A DNA stretch of 64,000 nt from Leptospiraceae bacterium. GTDB lineage: Bacteria; Spirochaetota; Leptospiria; Leptospirales; Leptonemataceae. The DNA lies in the NCBI GenBank assembly GCA_025059995.1, contig JANXCF010000001.1, positions 310,001-374,000 of the forward strand, written 5' to 3'. Position 1 is the first letter of the stretch; each line of letters starts with the position of its first letter. The position numbers and the translations under genes are program-made. Below, piece by piece: positions 31,332 to 36,975 of this stretch. The notes under the pieces are model-generated. The model saw only the letters and a list, made by a program, of their open reading frames with translations, was not told the DNA's origin and did no database searches.

Positions 31332-31940
31332 ATGAACAAAGAAAAAGAAAATCGAAAGGCTTCTATTTTAGAAATCTTGAAGGAGAAAAAGGTCACAACA
31401 GCCAAAGACTTAAGCAAGATGTTGAATGTATCCGAAATGACCATCTATCGAGATATAAGGGAGCTTTCAAATGAAGGTTTCATTGATAAAAAACACGGAA
31501 GCATTAAGATACAAGAAAAAGAGAACAAACAAAAAATCGAAGATCAAAATCAAAATAAGCAATGTCCTATATGTTTCAAGAATATCAATCCTCAAACTTC
31601 ATACAAAATATTACTTGATACTTCTGAAATCGTTGAGGCTTGTTGTGAGCATTGCGGGTTAATCTTGCATCAAAAATATGAACAAAAAAATGTCGCAGCA
31701 ATTTGCTATGATTTCATTAAGCGACAACCCATCAATTCTTACGAGGCGAATTTTGTTGTGGATTCTCTTGCTGTGCCTTGTTGCAGTCCCAGTGTGATTG
31801 CTTTTAACAATAAAGAAGATGCAGAAAGATTTACGAAAGGTTTTGGAGGAAAAGTTTTAAATTTTGTCGATGCATATAATGAATTAAAAAATAGGTCATC
31901 GAAAAATCTACATTCTTGTTGTCATCCAGTCCGACATTAA
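31332..31940 (+). CDS. DeoR-type HTH regulator fused to a cysteine-rich NosL-like domain
   Basis: 202 residues from ATG 31332 (a TTG at 31311 lies inside the operator and is unlikely). Residues 8-58 are a DeoR-type winged HTH (ILEILKEKKVTTAKDLSKML, SEMTIYRDIRELSNEGFI). A charged linker leads to a NosL-like domain (about 75-190): CPICFKNI, ACCEHCGLIL, FVVDSLAVPCCSPSVIAF and the DAERFTKGFGGKVLNFVDAYNEL ending typical of NosL. Three vicinal Cys pairs (ACCEHC, PCCSP, SCCHP) suggest a thiol, copper or As/Hg-type ligand sensed directly. It opens the redox/peptide locus at 31.3-37 kb. The domain fusion is seen; the effector is inference. Confidence 0.75.
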   Translation: MNKEKENRKASILEILKEKKVTTAKDLSKMLNVSEMTIYRDIRELSNEGFIDKKHGSIKIQEKENKQKIEDQNQNKQCPICFKNINPQTSYKILLDTSEIVEACCEHCGLILHQKYEQKNVAAICYDFIKRQPINSYEANFVVDSLAVPCCSPSVIAFNNKEDAERFTKGFGGKVLNFVDAYNELKNRSSKNLHSCCHPVRH

Positions 31941-32642: not shown

Positions 32643-33146
32643 TTAATTTTTTTGATTTTCTTTTAGTTTTTTTGCGAATTCTAAGGCATATTTAGTTGAA
32701 AAGGCAATATATACACCACAAGTATGCAAGTCGAAGTCCTTATCGAATGGAACATCACAATCATGTCCACTTAAGTGCTTGCAGAGAGTTCCCTTGAAAG
32801 TTTGCTCGAAGTTGTCGTAGAATTTTTGGGCGAATTCTCGAATTTCTTTTTTGTTGTATCCTTTTTCGGCTGCGTATTTACTTATGAAGCTAATACCACT
32901 TAAAAGAGCTCCACAGGTTTCTCCTTTTCCAGCAATCCCTTTCCCAAAACCACTTACAAAGGCTTTGTATTGTAATGAAGGAACTTGATCGAATTCTGCA
33001 ATCGATGAGGCAATGGCTTCGGAACAATTATCTGAACCATAAACGAAATTATCAGAGGCTTTTTGAACAAAATCTTTTATGTCATCTTCAGAGGAATTAA
33101 CAATCTCTTCAATCATATCTTTGGGAGTTAATTTTGTTTTTTCCAT
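32643..33146 (-). CDS. C_GCxxG_C_C family probable redox protein
   Basis: 167 residues from ATG 33146 (a TTG at 33182 would extend it by 12 residues). The pattern that names the family is present: NCSEAIASSIAEF, then GFGKGIAGKGETCGALLSG, then GTLCKHLSGHDCDVPF and HTCGVYIAFS. Family members are small predicted redox or metal proteins often encoded near selenium, sulphur or methyltransferase genes. It is divergent from the thioredoxin-reductase fusion at 33316 and shares the 133-base control region with it, which supports a joint thiol-redox function. Confidence 0.82.
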   Translation of the reverse strand: MEKTKLTPKDMIEEIVNSSEDDIKDFVQKASDNFVYGSDNCSEAIASSIAEFDQVPSLQYKAFVSGFGKGIAGKGETCGALLSGISFISKYAAEKGYNKKEIREFAQKFYDNFEQTFKGTLCKHLSGHDCDVPFDKDFDLHTCGVYIAFSTKYALEFAKKLKENQKN

Positions 33147-33269
33147 AGTTGCCAAAAAATTAAGAAATGTTTTTTTCGTCAAATAGATTATACACGTATT
33201 ATGTATTTGTAGTCAGTGAATTAATTTTTTGTTGCCAAAGACAAACTTAAATATTTTATGGTAATTACA

Positions 33270-33315: not shown

Positions 33316-34659
33316 ATGGGTAAAAACGTGATTGAAATCCAAGCACAAGATTATGAAAAATACGTGCTACAATCAGACAAACCCGTGATTTTGGATTTTT
33401 ATTCCGATGAATGTGTTCCTTGCGAAGCGTTAGCACCGAAATATGAAGAACTATCAGAAATTTTTGGTGATAAGATTGTGTTTCTCAAGATGTGGAGGCA
33501 AAAAAATCGTGAACTTGCTTTGAGTTTAGGTGTAAGGTCAAGCCCAACTTTGATTTTTTATCAACCTCGCGGAAAGGAAGTAGGGAAAAGACTCACAGGC
33601 GGAATTAAGAAAAAAGAAATCATCGAACAAATCTCAAATCTGATTGGAGAAGAAGAAGTCAAAAAGAGACTTTCTCAAAAACCAAAGAAAAGGCGTGATG
33701 TAGATGTGATTGTCTTGGGTGGTGGTCCAACAGGATTAACAGCAGGTCTTTATCTGGCTCAGGCGAAATTGGATACGATTATAATAGATCAAGATTTGCC
33801 AGGTGGTCAAGTCAAAATTACTCACATGATCTCGAATTTCCCGGGGACAGGTGGTCCTATCTCTGGCTGGGAGTTGGGAGAAAGAATGCAAAAACAGGTT
33901 CGAGAAGCTGGTGCCGAAATCATTAGTGCCGTTGATGTGACAAAAGTAAAATTACAACCAAGAGATCACGTTGTTTGGATTGATGATGATTTAGAAATCC
34001 ACGGAAAAGCAATCATATTAGCGATGGGATCAGAACCCAGAAAACTAAAAGTTCCCGGCGAAGAAGAATACAAAGGACATGGAATCTCTTATTGTGCTAC
34101 TTGTGATGGTAAATATTACGAAGGAAAAGAAGTAGTGGTCGTTGGGGGTGGTAACTCAGCTGTAGAAGAGTCTCTGTTCTTGACGAAGTTTGTAAATAAA
34201 GTAACAATTGTTCATCAGTTTGATCATCTACAAGCCAATAAAACTGCTCAAGAACAAGCCTTTCAAAATCCCAAAATTCACTTTGTATGGAATAGCGAAC
34301 CGAGAGCCTTCGAGAAACTCCCTGATGGTCGGATGAAGGTGACTATTGAAAATGTAAAAACCAAAGAATACTCTGATATAATCACTGATGGAGTCTTCAT
34401 CTTCGTTGGGTATGTACCTAATTTGTCCATTATCGAAGAGGATTTGGCTAAAGACAAGTGGGGTTATCTAATCACAGATGAAGATATGAGAACAAGCATT
34501 GAAGGAGTGTTCGCAGCTGGGGATTTGCGTTCCAAAAAATATCGACAAGTAACAATCTCTGTTGGTGAAGGAACCATTGCAGCGATGAGTTGCGAAAGAT
34601 ACATTGCAGAATTAAATCATGAATTAAAGAAAGAAAAAGATTTAGTATTAACGAAATAA
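33316..34659 (+). CDS. Thioredoxin-thioredoxin reductase fusion with altered cofactor site
   Basis: 447 residues in one frame. Residues 1-110 are a thioredoxin domain with CVPC (Cys33, Cys36) in place of CGPC and a cis-Pro in SSPTLI. Residues 120-447 are a low-molecular-weight thioredoxin reductase: FAD motif VIVLGGGPTGLTAG, redox CATC (Cys260, Cys263), nucleotide motif VVGGGNSAVEE and the closing GVFAAGDLR. The NADPH-selective HRRxxxRA segment reads HQFDHLQA, so the three arginines that hold the 2'-phosphate are missing. NADH or another donor is thus likely. AGGAGG precedes the ATG. Known Trx-TrxR fusions such as that of Mycobacterium leprae have the opposite domain order. Confidence 0.9.
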   Translation: MGKNVIEIQAQDYEKYVLQSDKPVILDFYSDECVPCEALAPKYEELSEIFGDKIVFLKMWRQKNRELALSLGVRSSPTLIFYQPRGKEVGKRLTGGIKKKEIIEQISNLIGEEEVKKRLSQKPKKRRDVDVIVLGGGPTGLTAGLYLAQAKLDTIIIDQDLPGGQVKITHMISNFPGTGGPISGWELGERMQKQVREAGAEIISAVDVTKVKLQPRDHVVWIDDDLEIHGKAIILAMGSEPRKLKVPGEEEYKGHGISYCATCDGKYYEGKEVVVVGGGNSAVEESLFLTKFVNKVTIVHQFDHLQANKTAQEQAFQNPKIHFVWNSEPRAFEKLPDGRMKVTIENVKTKEYSDIITDGVFIFVGYVPNLSIIEEDLAKDKWGYLITDEDMRTSIEGVFAAGDLRSKKYRQVTISVGEGTIAAMSCERYIAELNHELKKEKDLVLTK

Positions 34660-34680: not shown

Positions 34681-35322
34681 ATGGAATTGTTGTTTTTAGA
34701 TTCCATAAAAGTTCGATATGCACAAGAGGCAGATGCTGCATGCTGCCTTTCTTGTGGCTCTCCCATTGAATATTCTTTTTTGAAGCCTGGAGAAGTCTTG
34801 GTTGATTTGGGTTCGGGCAGAGGAACAGACGTAATTAAAGCAACTAAATATATAGGTTCCTCTGGAAAAGCAATTGGGATTGATGCAACCCCAGAGATGA
34901 TATCAGTGGCAAAAAGAAATGCCGAAAAGCTACGCTTAAAAAATGTAGATTTCCTTCTAGGTGAGATTGAGAACATACCTCTCGGTGATGAAGTTGCAGA
35001 TGTGGTGATTTCTAATTGTGTTATTAATCACGCAAAGGACAAAGCGAAGGTTTATCAAGAAATTTATCGTATCCTCAAACCCAATGGTAGATTTGTGATT
35101 TCTGATATTATAGCCGAGAAGGAATTACCAGAGGAAGTCAAAAATGATCCAGAATCTTGGGCACAATGTTATGGTGGAGCCATCACAAAAGAAGAGTATT
35201 TTCTTGCTATAGCAAAGGCAAACTTCAAGGAAATTGAAATCTTAGAAGAAAGTGCACCATACGAGAAAGGGAAAGAACGAGTCCTCATAAGAAGTATCAC
35301 AATTCGGGGATACAAAAAATAG
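34681..35322 (+). CDS. ArsM-like SAM-dependent methyltransferase
   Basis: 213 residues of the arsenite/metalloid methyltransferase group. The SAM site VLVDLGSGRGTD, GIDATPEMISVAKRNA and the VISNCVINHAKDK segment match ArsM closely. Of the Cys used by ArsM, Cys163 (AQCYGGA) and the Cys113 region are kept; near the N-terminus is CCLSCG (Cys21, 22, 25). The N-terminal region before the core is shorter than in classical ArsM. The gene lies between the Trx fusion (reductant) and a peptide gene, so it may methylate a metalloid, or the peptide itself. There is no arsR, arsC or arsB pump nearby. Its stop lies inside the next gene's Shine-Dalgarno. Confidence 0.78.
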   Translation: MELLFLDSIKVRYAQEADAACCLSCGSPIEYSFLKPGEVLVDLGSGRGTDVIKATKYIGSSGKAIGIDATPEMISVAKRNAEKLRLKNVDFLLGEIENIPLGDEVADVVISNCVINHAKDKAKVYQEIYRILKPNGRFVISDIIAEKELPEEVKNDPESWAQCYGGAITKEEYFLAIAKANFKEIEILEESAPYEKGKERVLIRSITIRGYKK

Positions 35323-35332
35323 GAGGTAAAAA

Positions 35333-35449
35333 ATGACAAAAACAAAAGGAATTCGCCCAATTTCCAGACCAAAACCAGTAGAAAAGTTGGTAAAAGTAGC
35401 TCAGTGCTGCTCCAAACAATCTAAAATTATCTCTGGTTGTCACGATTAA
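35333..35449 (+). CDS. 38-residue Cys-containing peptide, candidate radical-SAM substrate
   Basis: A short gene not in standard-length ORF calls. AGGAGGT at 35321-35327, a perfect anti-16S match, stands five bases before ATG 35333, and an intrinsic terminator follows the stop directly, so the gene is well supported. The peptide has a basic, Pro-rich first half (KGIRPISRPKPVEKL), like a leader, and a second half with a vicinal Cys pair and a third Cys (AQCCSKQSKIISGCHD), like a core. There is no signal peptide. It lies between an ArsM-like methyltransferase and a radical SAM/SPASM enzyme. I know no family with this sequence; RiPP precursor or metalloid-binding peptide is inferred from context. 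Confidence 0.75.
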   Translation: MTKTKGIRPISRPKPVEKLVKVAQCCSKQSKIISGCHD

Positions 35450-35454
35450 TTACT

Positions 35455-35476
35455 GCCCCACCTGGGGCTTTTTTTT
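35455..35476 (+). terminator. Intrinsic terminator after the peptide gene
   Basis: GCCCC-ACCT-GGGGC (35455-35468), a five-pair GC stem with a four-base loop, then eight T. It starts six bases after the peptide stop and before the radical SAM gene, a position that would keep the peptide message abundant and let a little transcription reach the enzyme, as is common between RiPP precursors and maturases. Confidence 0.85.
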
Positions 35477-35502
35477 AGTTTCAAAAACAAAAGGTGGTGA
35501 GT

Positions 35503-36975
35503 ATGATAAAATCCCGCTATACTTTTACGTTTGAAACTCCCTCAAAGCGTTTTTTCATCATGAATTACCTGACAGGTGCTATTGATGAGGTCCTTCCAGA
35601 AGAAAGAGAAGAATTAGAAAAAAGACTCGAGAAAAATGAATGGTCAGATTATCATTTGAAAGATTACTTTTTAGAACGAGGTTATCTTTTTCCATCCGTA
35701 GAAGACGAACAAGAATACATTCACGAAAAATATATCGAATTTTTGGAAGAATACGAAAATACGCCAGTTCAAATCATCTTTTCTACTACTTATGCATGTA
35801 ATTTTTCTTGTGTTTATTGTTTTCAAGAGAGTTATAAAGAAAATTCGAAAATCATCACACCTGAAGTTACAAATGCGTTTTTCCAATACATTTCTATTCA
35901 ATTTGCCAATGAAAAAATCAAGCCATATATTACCTTATTTGGTGGTGAACCTTTACTCGGTGGTGAGCGATACAAAAAAAATCTTTTGTATTTCTTAGAA
36001 AAAGCCAAAGAATACGATTACGAAATCACGATTGTGACCAATGGCTATGAGCTTGTAAATTACGTTCTGGACTTCAAGAGAATTGGGGTTCGAATCAGAG
36101 AAATTCAAGTAAGTATTGATGGAAGTCCTGAACAGCACAACAAACGAAGACCCACAGCATCTGGTAAACCTACGTTTGAACGAGTAGCTCTCGGTGTTTC
36201 CGAAGCCCTAAAAAGTGGGTATCGAGTCAATCTAAGAATGATTGTTGATAAAGAAAATTTGCCCACACTCGTAAAATTAGCAGAATACGCAGAAGAAGCT
36301 GGTTGGTTGAATTATTCAGATTCGTTTTTTGAAACTACGATTGGAAGAAATTATGAACTACATACATGCCAACCCAAAGCAAGCCTGTATAACCGAGTTG
36401 AGCTCTGGAAGGATTTTATCGACTTAGCTGAGAAATATCCCATTATGAAGAAATTTCACAAACCCCATTTTCATGGTATACGATACTTGGCGGAAAACGG
36501 CACTTTGCCAATGCCGATTTTTGATGGTTGTCCTGCGGGGAAAAAAGAATGGGCATTTGACTTATACGGGAATATCTATGGTTGCACGGCATCTGTTGGA
36601 GTTGAGAAATACAAACTGGGAAACATATTCGAAAACACAAAATTAGTCAAAGATTCTGTCAGGCTACAGAGTTATAGTCCAGAGGCTATTGATGCAGAAG
36701 TAAAGTTTATAAACACATCACATAAACCTGAAATGTACCACCAAGCGGTTTTATTGAAGGACAGTCAAGAAGAACAGCGTTTGAAGTGGCAAACCAGAGA
36801 TGTTCTGTCTATTCCTGAATGTAGAACCTGTCCAGTTTCATTGTCATGTGGTGGAGGCTGTGGAGTATTAGCAGCAAATCGAACAGGAGAAATTTTATCT
36901 CCTGATTGTAGACCTGTGAAGGAAATTGTTTCTATGGCAATAGATTATTATCGAATAGGTCTCGAGGAAACCTAA
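35503..36975 (+). CDS. Radical SAM/SPASM peptide-maturase-like enzyme
   Basis: 490 residues from ATG 35503, where AAGGTGGTG serves as Shine-Dalgarno; two GTG codons upstream in frame are less likely. Residues 1-90 are a helical domain that could hold a peptide-recognition element. The radical SAM motif is CNFSCVYC (Cys99, 103, 106), then LFGGEPLL and IVTNGYEL. The C-terminal SPASM cysteines fit the full pattern: CPAG...GNIYGC (C-X12-G-X4-C), CRTCPVSLSCGGGC (C-X2-C-X5-C-X3-C) and a last SPDC, so two extra 4Fe-4S clusters are expected. Such enzymes install thioether or carbon crosslinks on small peptides, and the 38-residue peptide upstream is the obvious substrate. Ends four bases into folD (convergent). 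Confidence 0.88.
   Translation: MIKSRYTFTFETPSKRFFIMNYLTGAIDEVLPEEREELEKRLEKNEWSDYHLKDYFLERGYLFPSVEDEQEYIHEKYIEFLEEYENTPVQIIFSTTYACNFSCVYCFQESYKENSKIITPEVTNAFFQYISIQFANEKIKPYITLFGGEPLLGGERYKKNLLYFLEKAKEYDYEITIVTNGYELVNYVLDFKRIGVRIREIQVSIDGSPEQHNKRRPTASGKPTFERVALGVSEALKSGYRVNLRMIVDKENLPTLVKLAEYAEEAGWLNYSDSFFETTIGRNYELHTCQPKASLYNRVELWKDFIDLAEKYPIMKKFHKPHFHGIRYLAENGTLPMPIFDGCPAGKKEWAFDLYGNIYGCTASVGVEKYKLGNIFENTKLVKDSVRLQSYSPEAIDAEVKFINTSHKPEMYHQAVLLKDSQEEQRLKWQTRDVLSIPECRTCPVSLSCGGGCGVLAANRTGEILSPDCRPVKEIVSMAIDYYRIGLEET

Follow-up and report, generated by a model that had tools for sequence, protein, structure and literature searches.

The open reading frame of 38 codons at positions 35333 to 35449 (+ strand) of the window, by which we mean the whole stretch of 64,000 nucleotides that was analyzed, is a real gene whose conservation goes far beyond chance. 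It is conserved and selected as a protein, it is inseparable from one radical SAM/SPASM maturase, and a hairpin lies between the two genes. The best explanation, which we hold to be probable rather than established, is that it encodes the precursor in an undescribed RiPP-type family, carried in a four-gene cassette, and that its product serves as an intracellular thiol ligand or carrier for a metalloid; the chemistry, the product and the function are inferred. The cassette is compact and consists of an ArsM-like methyltransferase, the peptide, the radical SAM/SPASM enzyme and a thioredoxin reductase fused to thioredoxin, that is, a RiPP-type precursor and a SPASM maturase with an unprecedented set of partners. 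RiPP precursors are often overlooked as too short for gene callers, and no Pfam, NCBIfam or Rfam family covers this peptide, the family scans giving only matches at chance level. A search of the open-access literature found no description of the peptide or of the combination of ArsM, RiPP, SPASM and DUF5714; subscription papers and preprints were outside that search, and prior description of the family cannot be excluded.

The gene starts with ATG at 35333 and ends with TAA, its translation is MTKTKGIRPISRPKPVEKLVKVAQCCSKQSKIISGCHD, and it sits between the genes of the methyltransferase (34681–35322) and of the radical SAM/SPASM enzyme (35503–36975). An earlier note on this DNA had described AGGAGGT five bases ahead of the start codon, with the methyltransferase stop inside this Shine-Dalgarno sequence. 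The former agrees base for base (35321–35327, + strand, as read from the sequence), and in the window the stop codon TAG (35320–35322) indeed overlaps it. The translational coupling that the note derived from the overlap remains plausible for the window without being conserved, since most relatives have a gap between both genes. Comparison with relatives divides the peptide into a variable, basic, leader-like part (residues 1–22, 35333–35398), in which RPIS corresponds to the MKSLI/MKPIS motif of the relatives, and the core AQCCSKQSKIISGCHD (residues 23–38, 35399–35446), in which A, Q, C, C, K, G, C, H and D are invariant in the first 21 loci. The proposal of a leader and core peptide beside a SPASM enzyme is supported, the leader being variable and basic and the core nearly invariant across relatives.

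The same leader/core architecture with a conserved core is seen throughout the peptide family. Open reading frames in relatives measure 30–52 codons and have good Shine-Dalgarno sites; their leaders are variable and basic and start in the manner of MKSL, MKPI or MRPL (an N-terminal MKSLIKK-like motif). The C-terminal 16 residues read AQCC[A/S]KxSxxxxGCHD in Spirochaetota, Bacteroidota, Ignavibacteriota, Myxococcota, Bacillota and others, the core in the relatives' loci is AQCC[AST]KxSxxxxGCHD, and in two Bacteroidota loci ALCC replaces AQCC (Q to L). Entropy over 109 distinct core sequences is 0.46, 0.39 and 1.46 bits at codon positions 1, 2 and 3, respectively, and the core of the window differs from those of three genus mates by 5–8 synonymous and no non-synonymous codons. 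The earlier note had named two outcomes that would refute the gene, namely homologous loci without a conserved short open reading frame and substitutions that are random with respect to codon position. Neither occurred: the reading frame is present beside 78 of 78 assessable maturase orthologues, and the substitutions are strongly biased to synonymous positions. The reading frame is under strong purifying selection, and we regard it as nearly certain that the peptide is translated and selected.

At a loose cut-off, a protein search of 100 relatives matched the peptide in 41, reaching from the genus to the edges of the phylum, with clear matches within the genus (down to E 1e-11). By profile search the peptide rises above background in about 36 of the 393 genomes of the phylum, and an exact DNA pattern scan that took one genome for each species matched at least 119 stretches. 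The pattern-scan matches listed include Spirochaetota, Bacteroidota, Ignavibacteriota, Myxococcota, Bacillota, Marinamargulisbacteria and bins labeled Hydrogenedentota; cultured carriers among the matches listed are Desulfosporosinus metallidurans, Desulfosporosinus sp. I2, Paradesulfitobacterium ferrireducens and Anaeromyxobacter soli. No match was found in the plasmid collection searched. Motif invariance among the 80 pattern-scan loci is by construction and carried no weight as evidence; sets free of this bias are the search of 100 relatives, the profile search of the phylum and the searches with the maturase alone. Going by its sequences, the peptide has hardly changed across six or more bacterial phyla. 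The tree of the maturase groups broadly by phylum with some mixing, which leaves both descent and transfer possible.

Because the pattern scan forces the motif, linkage was assessed with searches that used only the maturase, and in these the peptide turned up at every one of the 78 loci that could be assessed, which come from three phyla (35 Spirochaetota, 29 Bacteroidota and 14 Bacillota). The maturase occurs in 36 of 393 Spirochaetota genomes, 35 of them with the peptide; the thirty-sixth (G102) was rejected as a genome lacking it, as its contig ends where the peptide would lie. Another Spirochaetota genome (G057) is not an exception either: its peptide lies close by on the other strand, near the ArsM-like gene. 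All 29 fetched Bacteroidota loci have the peptide (27 AQCC and 2 ALCC), as do all 14 Bacillota loci with a complete upstream part. Six Bacillota loci that appeared to lack the peptide contain it in a reading frame without ATG.

The first 20 loci all contain ArsM-like, peptide and radical SAM genes, and the thioredoxin reductase wherever the contig is long enough; among 27 loci that are not identical and extend more than 3 kb to either side, 27 have the methyltransferase, 27 the radical SAM enzyme and 26 the thioredoxin reductase, which in the window is the fusion with thioredoxin encoded upstream at 33316–34659 (+ strand) and assigned by family matches. In Myxococcota the gene order is permuted and thioredoxin is separate from its reductase while most parts are retained, so that the association does not depend on operon order alone. 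An optional fifth part, DUF5714, is fused to the C-terminus of the maturase in clostridia (for example, L138 1262–3400 and L078 3214–5394) and has its own gene at the cassette in several spirochaetes and in other Bacillota. As a Rosetta-stone link, the fusion could place DUF5714 in a functional context for the first time. In one genome (G077, L238 1154–2082) an ArsM gene of the NH type, described below, is followed by what we read as a C-terminal remnant of the thioredoxin reductase, and the peptide and the maturase are gone; this locus looks as if it were a decayed cassette whose parts were lost together. Clustering of the neighborhoods revealed no exporter, peptidase or immunity gene that recurs with the cassette, so release of the core is not indicated.

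The maturase gene starts with ATG at 35503 (+ strand), a GTG at 35494 being a longer alternative start. The CxxxCxxC motif and the cysteines of the C-terminal SPASM auxiliary clusters are invariant in the maturases; the Pfam SPASM model is matched weakly (E 0.06). An AlphaFold2 model of the enzyme (pLDDT 87) has an N-terminal beta3-alpha3 module of RRE type, where pLDDT exceeds 90; that this module is RRE-like is a prediction that rests on the topology of the model and on alignment over the whole of CteB, without comparison to an RRE profile. The closest solved proteins are CteB (5why and 5wgg by fold, 5wgg by sequence), followed by anSME and SuiB. CteB, the thioether-forming maturase of SCIFF peptides in Clostridia (TIGR03974), is hence the nearest solved relative by both sequence and fold, and its system resembles ours in that a short, highly conserved cysteine-containing peptide gene adjoins a SPASM enzyme without an exporter, the RRE being in our case predicted from the model. 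The differences are that our maturase scores 94.5 bits against the TIGR03974 cut-off of 425, that the core has three cysteines whereas SCIFF has six in about 45 residues, and that the cassette has methyltransferase and thioredoxin–thioredoxin reductase partners; by score and by cysteine number it falls outside SCIFF. No NCBIfam model is passed, and the maturase falls far under the cut-off of every maturase family. Its best NCBIfam scores, 129.8 bits for CefB (NF038107) and 114.1 bits for TIGR04463, are far from the respective cut-offs of 600 and 525, and the precursor differs in having no cysteine at every fifth position. It is very likely that the peptide is the substrate of the adjacent radical SAM enzyme; the modification itself is inferred.

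Between the two genes lies the GC hairpin GCCCC-ACCT-GGGGC (35455–35468, + strand) with its eight T (35469–35476), exactly as the earlier note had it, after the stop of the peptide. It is the only terminator-like site found on the + strand in 33.1–37.1 kb. In the window itself the hairpin has a short stem (5 bp) and a z of -1.4 over 75 nt. In relatives, the 75 nt past the peptide stop give a mean z of -3.0 against dinucleotide shuffles, with 67% below -2, compared to means of -0.3 and -0.2 in flanking coding sequences used as controls (10% and 3% below -2). The stem sequences are unrelated between lineages, the hairpin being strongly conserved as a structure at this intergenic position. We propose that it acts as a partial terminator or mRNA stabilizer between precursor and maturase; there are no expression data. 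By analogy only, an internal hairpin in an arsenic operon of Bacillus sp. CDB3 has been reported to lower downstream expression (PMC4562236).

The methyltransferase (34681–35322, + strand) has the same fold family as the arsenite methyltransferase ArsM (NF008823; CmArsM, 4fr0/4kw7) and keeps its arsenic-binding cysteine triad: C25, C113 and C163 align with C72, C174 and C224 of CmArsM and are kept in 98% of 78 cassette members. The two enzymes differ in other respects. The window protein reaches 238 bits against the model cut-off of 263, the cassette enzyme is about 55 N-terminal residues shorter than ArsM, in some genomes it is co-resident with a true ArsM, and its motif NCxxNH, with a histidine (H117) that is fully conserved in the cassette, stands in place of the NCxxNL of true ArsM proteins of the same phylum. 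The score below the cut-off, the missing N-terminus and NH for NL leave room for a different substrate of the enzyme, possibly the peptide itself. Cassette methyltransferases are likely annotated today as arsenite methyltransferases, and we offer NCxxNH to annotators as a diagnostic motif.

These parts can be assembled into a mechanism, every step of which is inferred. With good support, the hairpin would raise the output of precursor above that of enzyme, the maturase would hold the basic MKSLIKK-like leader with its RRE-like N-terminus, and the radical chemistry of the maturase would act on the AQCC..GCHD core, most likely forming a thioether or similar cross-link as in CteB. With moderate support, the dedicated thioredoxin and thioredoxin reductase would maintain the reduced state of the cysteines and of the methyltransferase, the ArsM-like enzyme would methylate a thiol-bound metalloid, arsenic being the first candidate, and the mature peptide would be an intracellular thiol ligand or carrier for the metalloid and not a secreted antibiotic.

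A metalloid-related function of the cassette is the leading reading, unproven in the absence of metal-binding data, and we consider the case for it evenly balanced. The lines in its favor are the thiol triad of ArsM, the genomic context in one spirochaete and the enrichment of arsenic genes in carriers; the resemblance of the DUF5714 tail to the MbdU family was also counted for it. In the spirochaete (G057), a canonical ArsM, ACR3 (437 bits), ArsC and a regulator of the ArsR family are encoded within kilobases of the cassette. ACR3 is found in 24 of 38 carriers versus 102 of 355 non-carriers (p 4e-5), and canonical ArsM in 8 of 22 versus 7 of 78 (p 0.004), both without correction for phylogeny. 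MbdU (NF045648, a metal-binding double selenoprotein) is the nearest NCBIfam model to the clostridial DUF5714 tail, which scores 113.8 bits against a cut-off of 600 and whose role is unknown. As a side observation, the arsenic island of G057 (L195 51–7870) surrounds the methyltransferase and radical SAM genes of the cassette; its ArsC is of the thioredoxin type, and it also includes a CcdA/DsbD-like protein.

A narrower version, in which the peptide itself bears arsenic, the ArsM-like enzyme methylating As(III) presented by the thiols of AQCC..GCHD and the radical SAM enzyme fixing the arsenical or its thiol ligand set covalently, we regard as doubtful. If true, it would amount to a ribosomal organoarsenical, or a dedicated arsenic-carrier RiPP, distributed among mostly anaerobic bacteria of six or more phyla.

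The main rival to the metalloid reading is that the peptide is a RiPP precursor unrelated to metalloids, the ArsM-like enzyme acting as methylase on the peptide itself or on a small molecule, and the product being a conserved thiol or redox cofactor or a signal (compare the SCIFF-type peptides). It is less probable but a serious possibility. Arsenic genes were found close by, using tblastn, at only one of about 118 cassette loci examined, and frequent neighbors are thioredoxins, DUF1847, DUF302 or DUF6132 rather than ars genes. ACR3 has no match in the genome of the window, and no member of its genus exceeds the ACR3 cut-off. The distinctness of the methyltransferase family (NH motif, missing N-terminus) and a core conservation too high for an antibiotic also fit. 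Against it, a plain peptide methyltransferase would not need the three arsenic-binding cysteines of ArsM that are kept at 98%, and the one locus in an ars island and the ACR3 enrichment also speak against it.

A small unmodified chaperone of metals or metalloids, similar to ArsD or metallothionein, with the radical SAM enzyme acting elsewhere, is suggested by the vicinal CC together with GC-H-D and by weak similarity to the ArsD-related protein VcpD (4 of 21 members, best E 0.097) and to a metallothionein family. Both similarities are at chance level, the peptide staying below the profile cut-off for the ArsD-related vicinal cysteine protein (NF047871), and the linkage is tightest with precisely the radical SAM enzyme (78 of 78), which has the RRE-like domain; we consider this explanation unlikely. 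An antimicrobial or competition peptide, such as a bacteriocin-like ranthipeptide or sactipeptide, would suit a maturase related to those of ranthipeptides, but the core is invariant across phyla and not diversified, and there is no recurring exporter, peptidase or immunity gene; the conservation pattern leads us to reject this very unlikely reading and suggests that it serves housekeeping and not warfare. A non-protein element between the ArsM-like and radical SAM genes, either a regulatory RNA or an attenuator leader, to which the conserved hairpin after the reading frame might be ascribed, is hardly credible, being contradicted by the codon-position statistics, with third-position variation and invariant amino acids, and matching no Rfam family except rli47 by chance (E 0.57).

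The preferred reading, a RiPP-type precursor whose product handles a metalloid through its thiols, would link ribosomal peptides with metalloid methylation, a link for which we found no precedent in the literature, and the partner enzymes suggest metalloid or thiol chemistry. Radical SAM enzymes are paired with an ArsM-type methyltransferase in the arsenosugar (ArsM/ArsS) and arsinothricin pathways. To our knowledge neither involves a ribosomal peptide, and the cassette differs from both in using a SPASM peptide maturase. For annotators, the analysis provides a new precursor family and a new maturase family. The cassette is directly testable, as it comprises four small genes and has cultured hosts such as Desulfosporosinus metallidurans and Anaeromyxobacter soli.

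Some further observations concern the leaders and the surroundings of the cassette. The window peptide has 3 cysteines and relatives commonly have 3 or 5. Extra leader cysteines, mostly two, occur in 33 of the 80 pattern-scan peptides and are unexplained; a second CC pair is present in the leader in L033, L035, L037, L038, L040 and most Bacillota and Myxococcota peptides (for example, SCCGTANNTVAQCCSK). In the window, the gene at 31332–31940 (+ strand) encodes a DeoR/HTH_11 DNA-binding domain with a cysteine-rich, NosL-like C-terminal part ending in SCCHPVRH, possibly a metal-sensing regulator close to the cassette, and has no homologue in the first 20 related loci. Divergent from the cassette, at 32643–33182 (- strand), is a member of the C_GCAxxG_C_C family of redox proteins that was not found in other cassette loci. 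DUF5714, which is part of several cassettes, has a CG..G motif that resembles the one in this protein.
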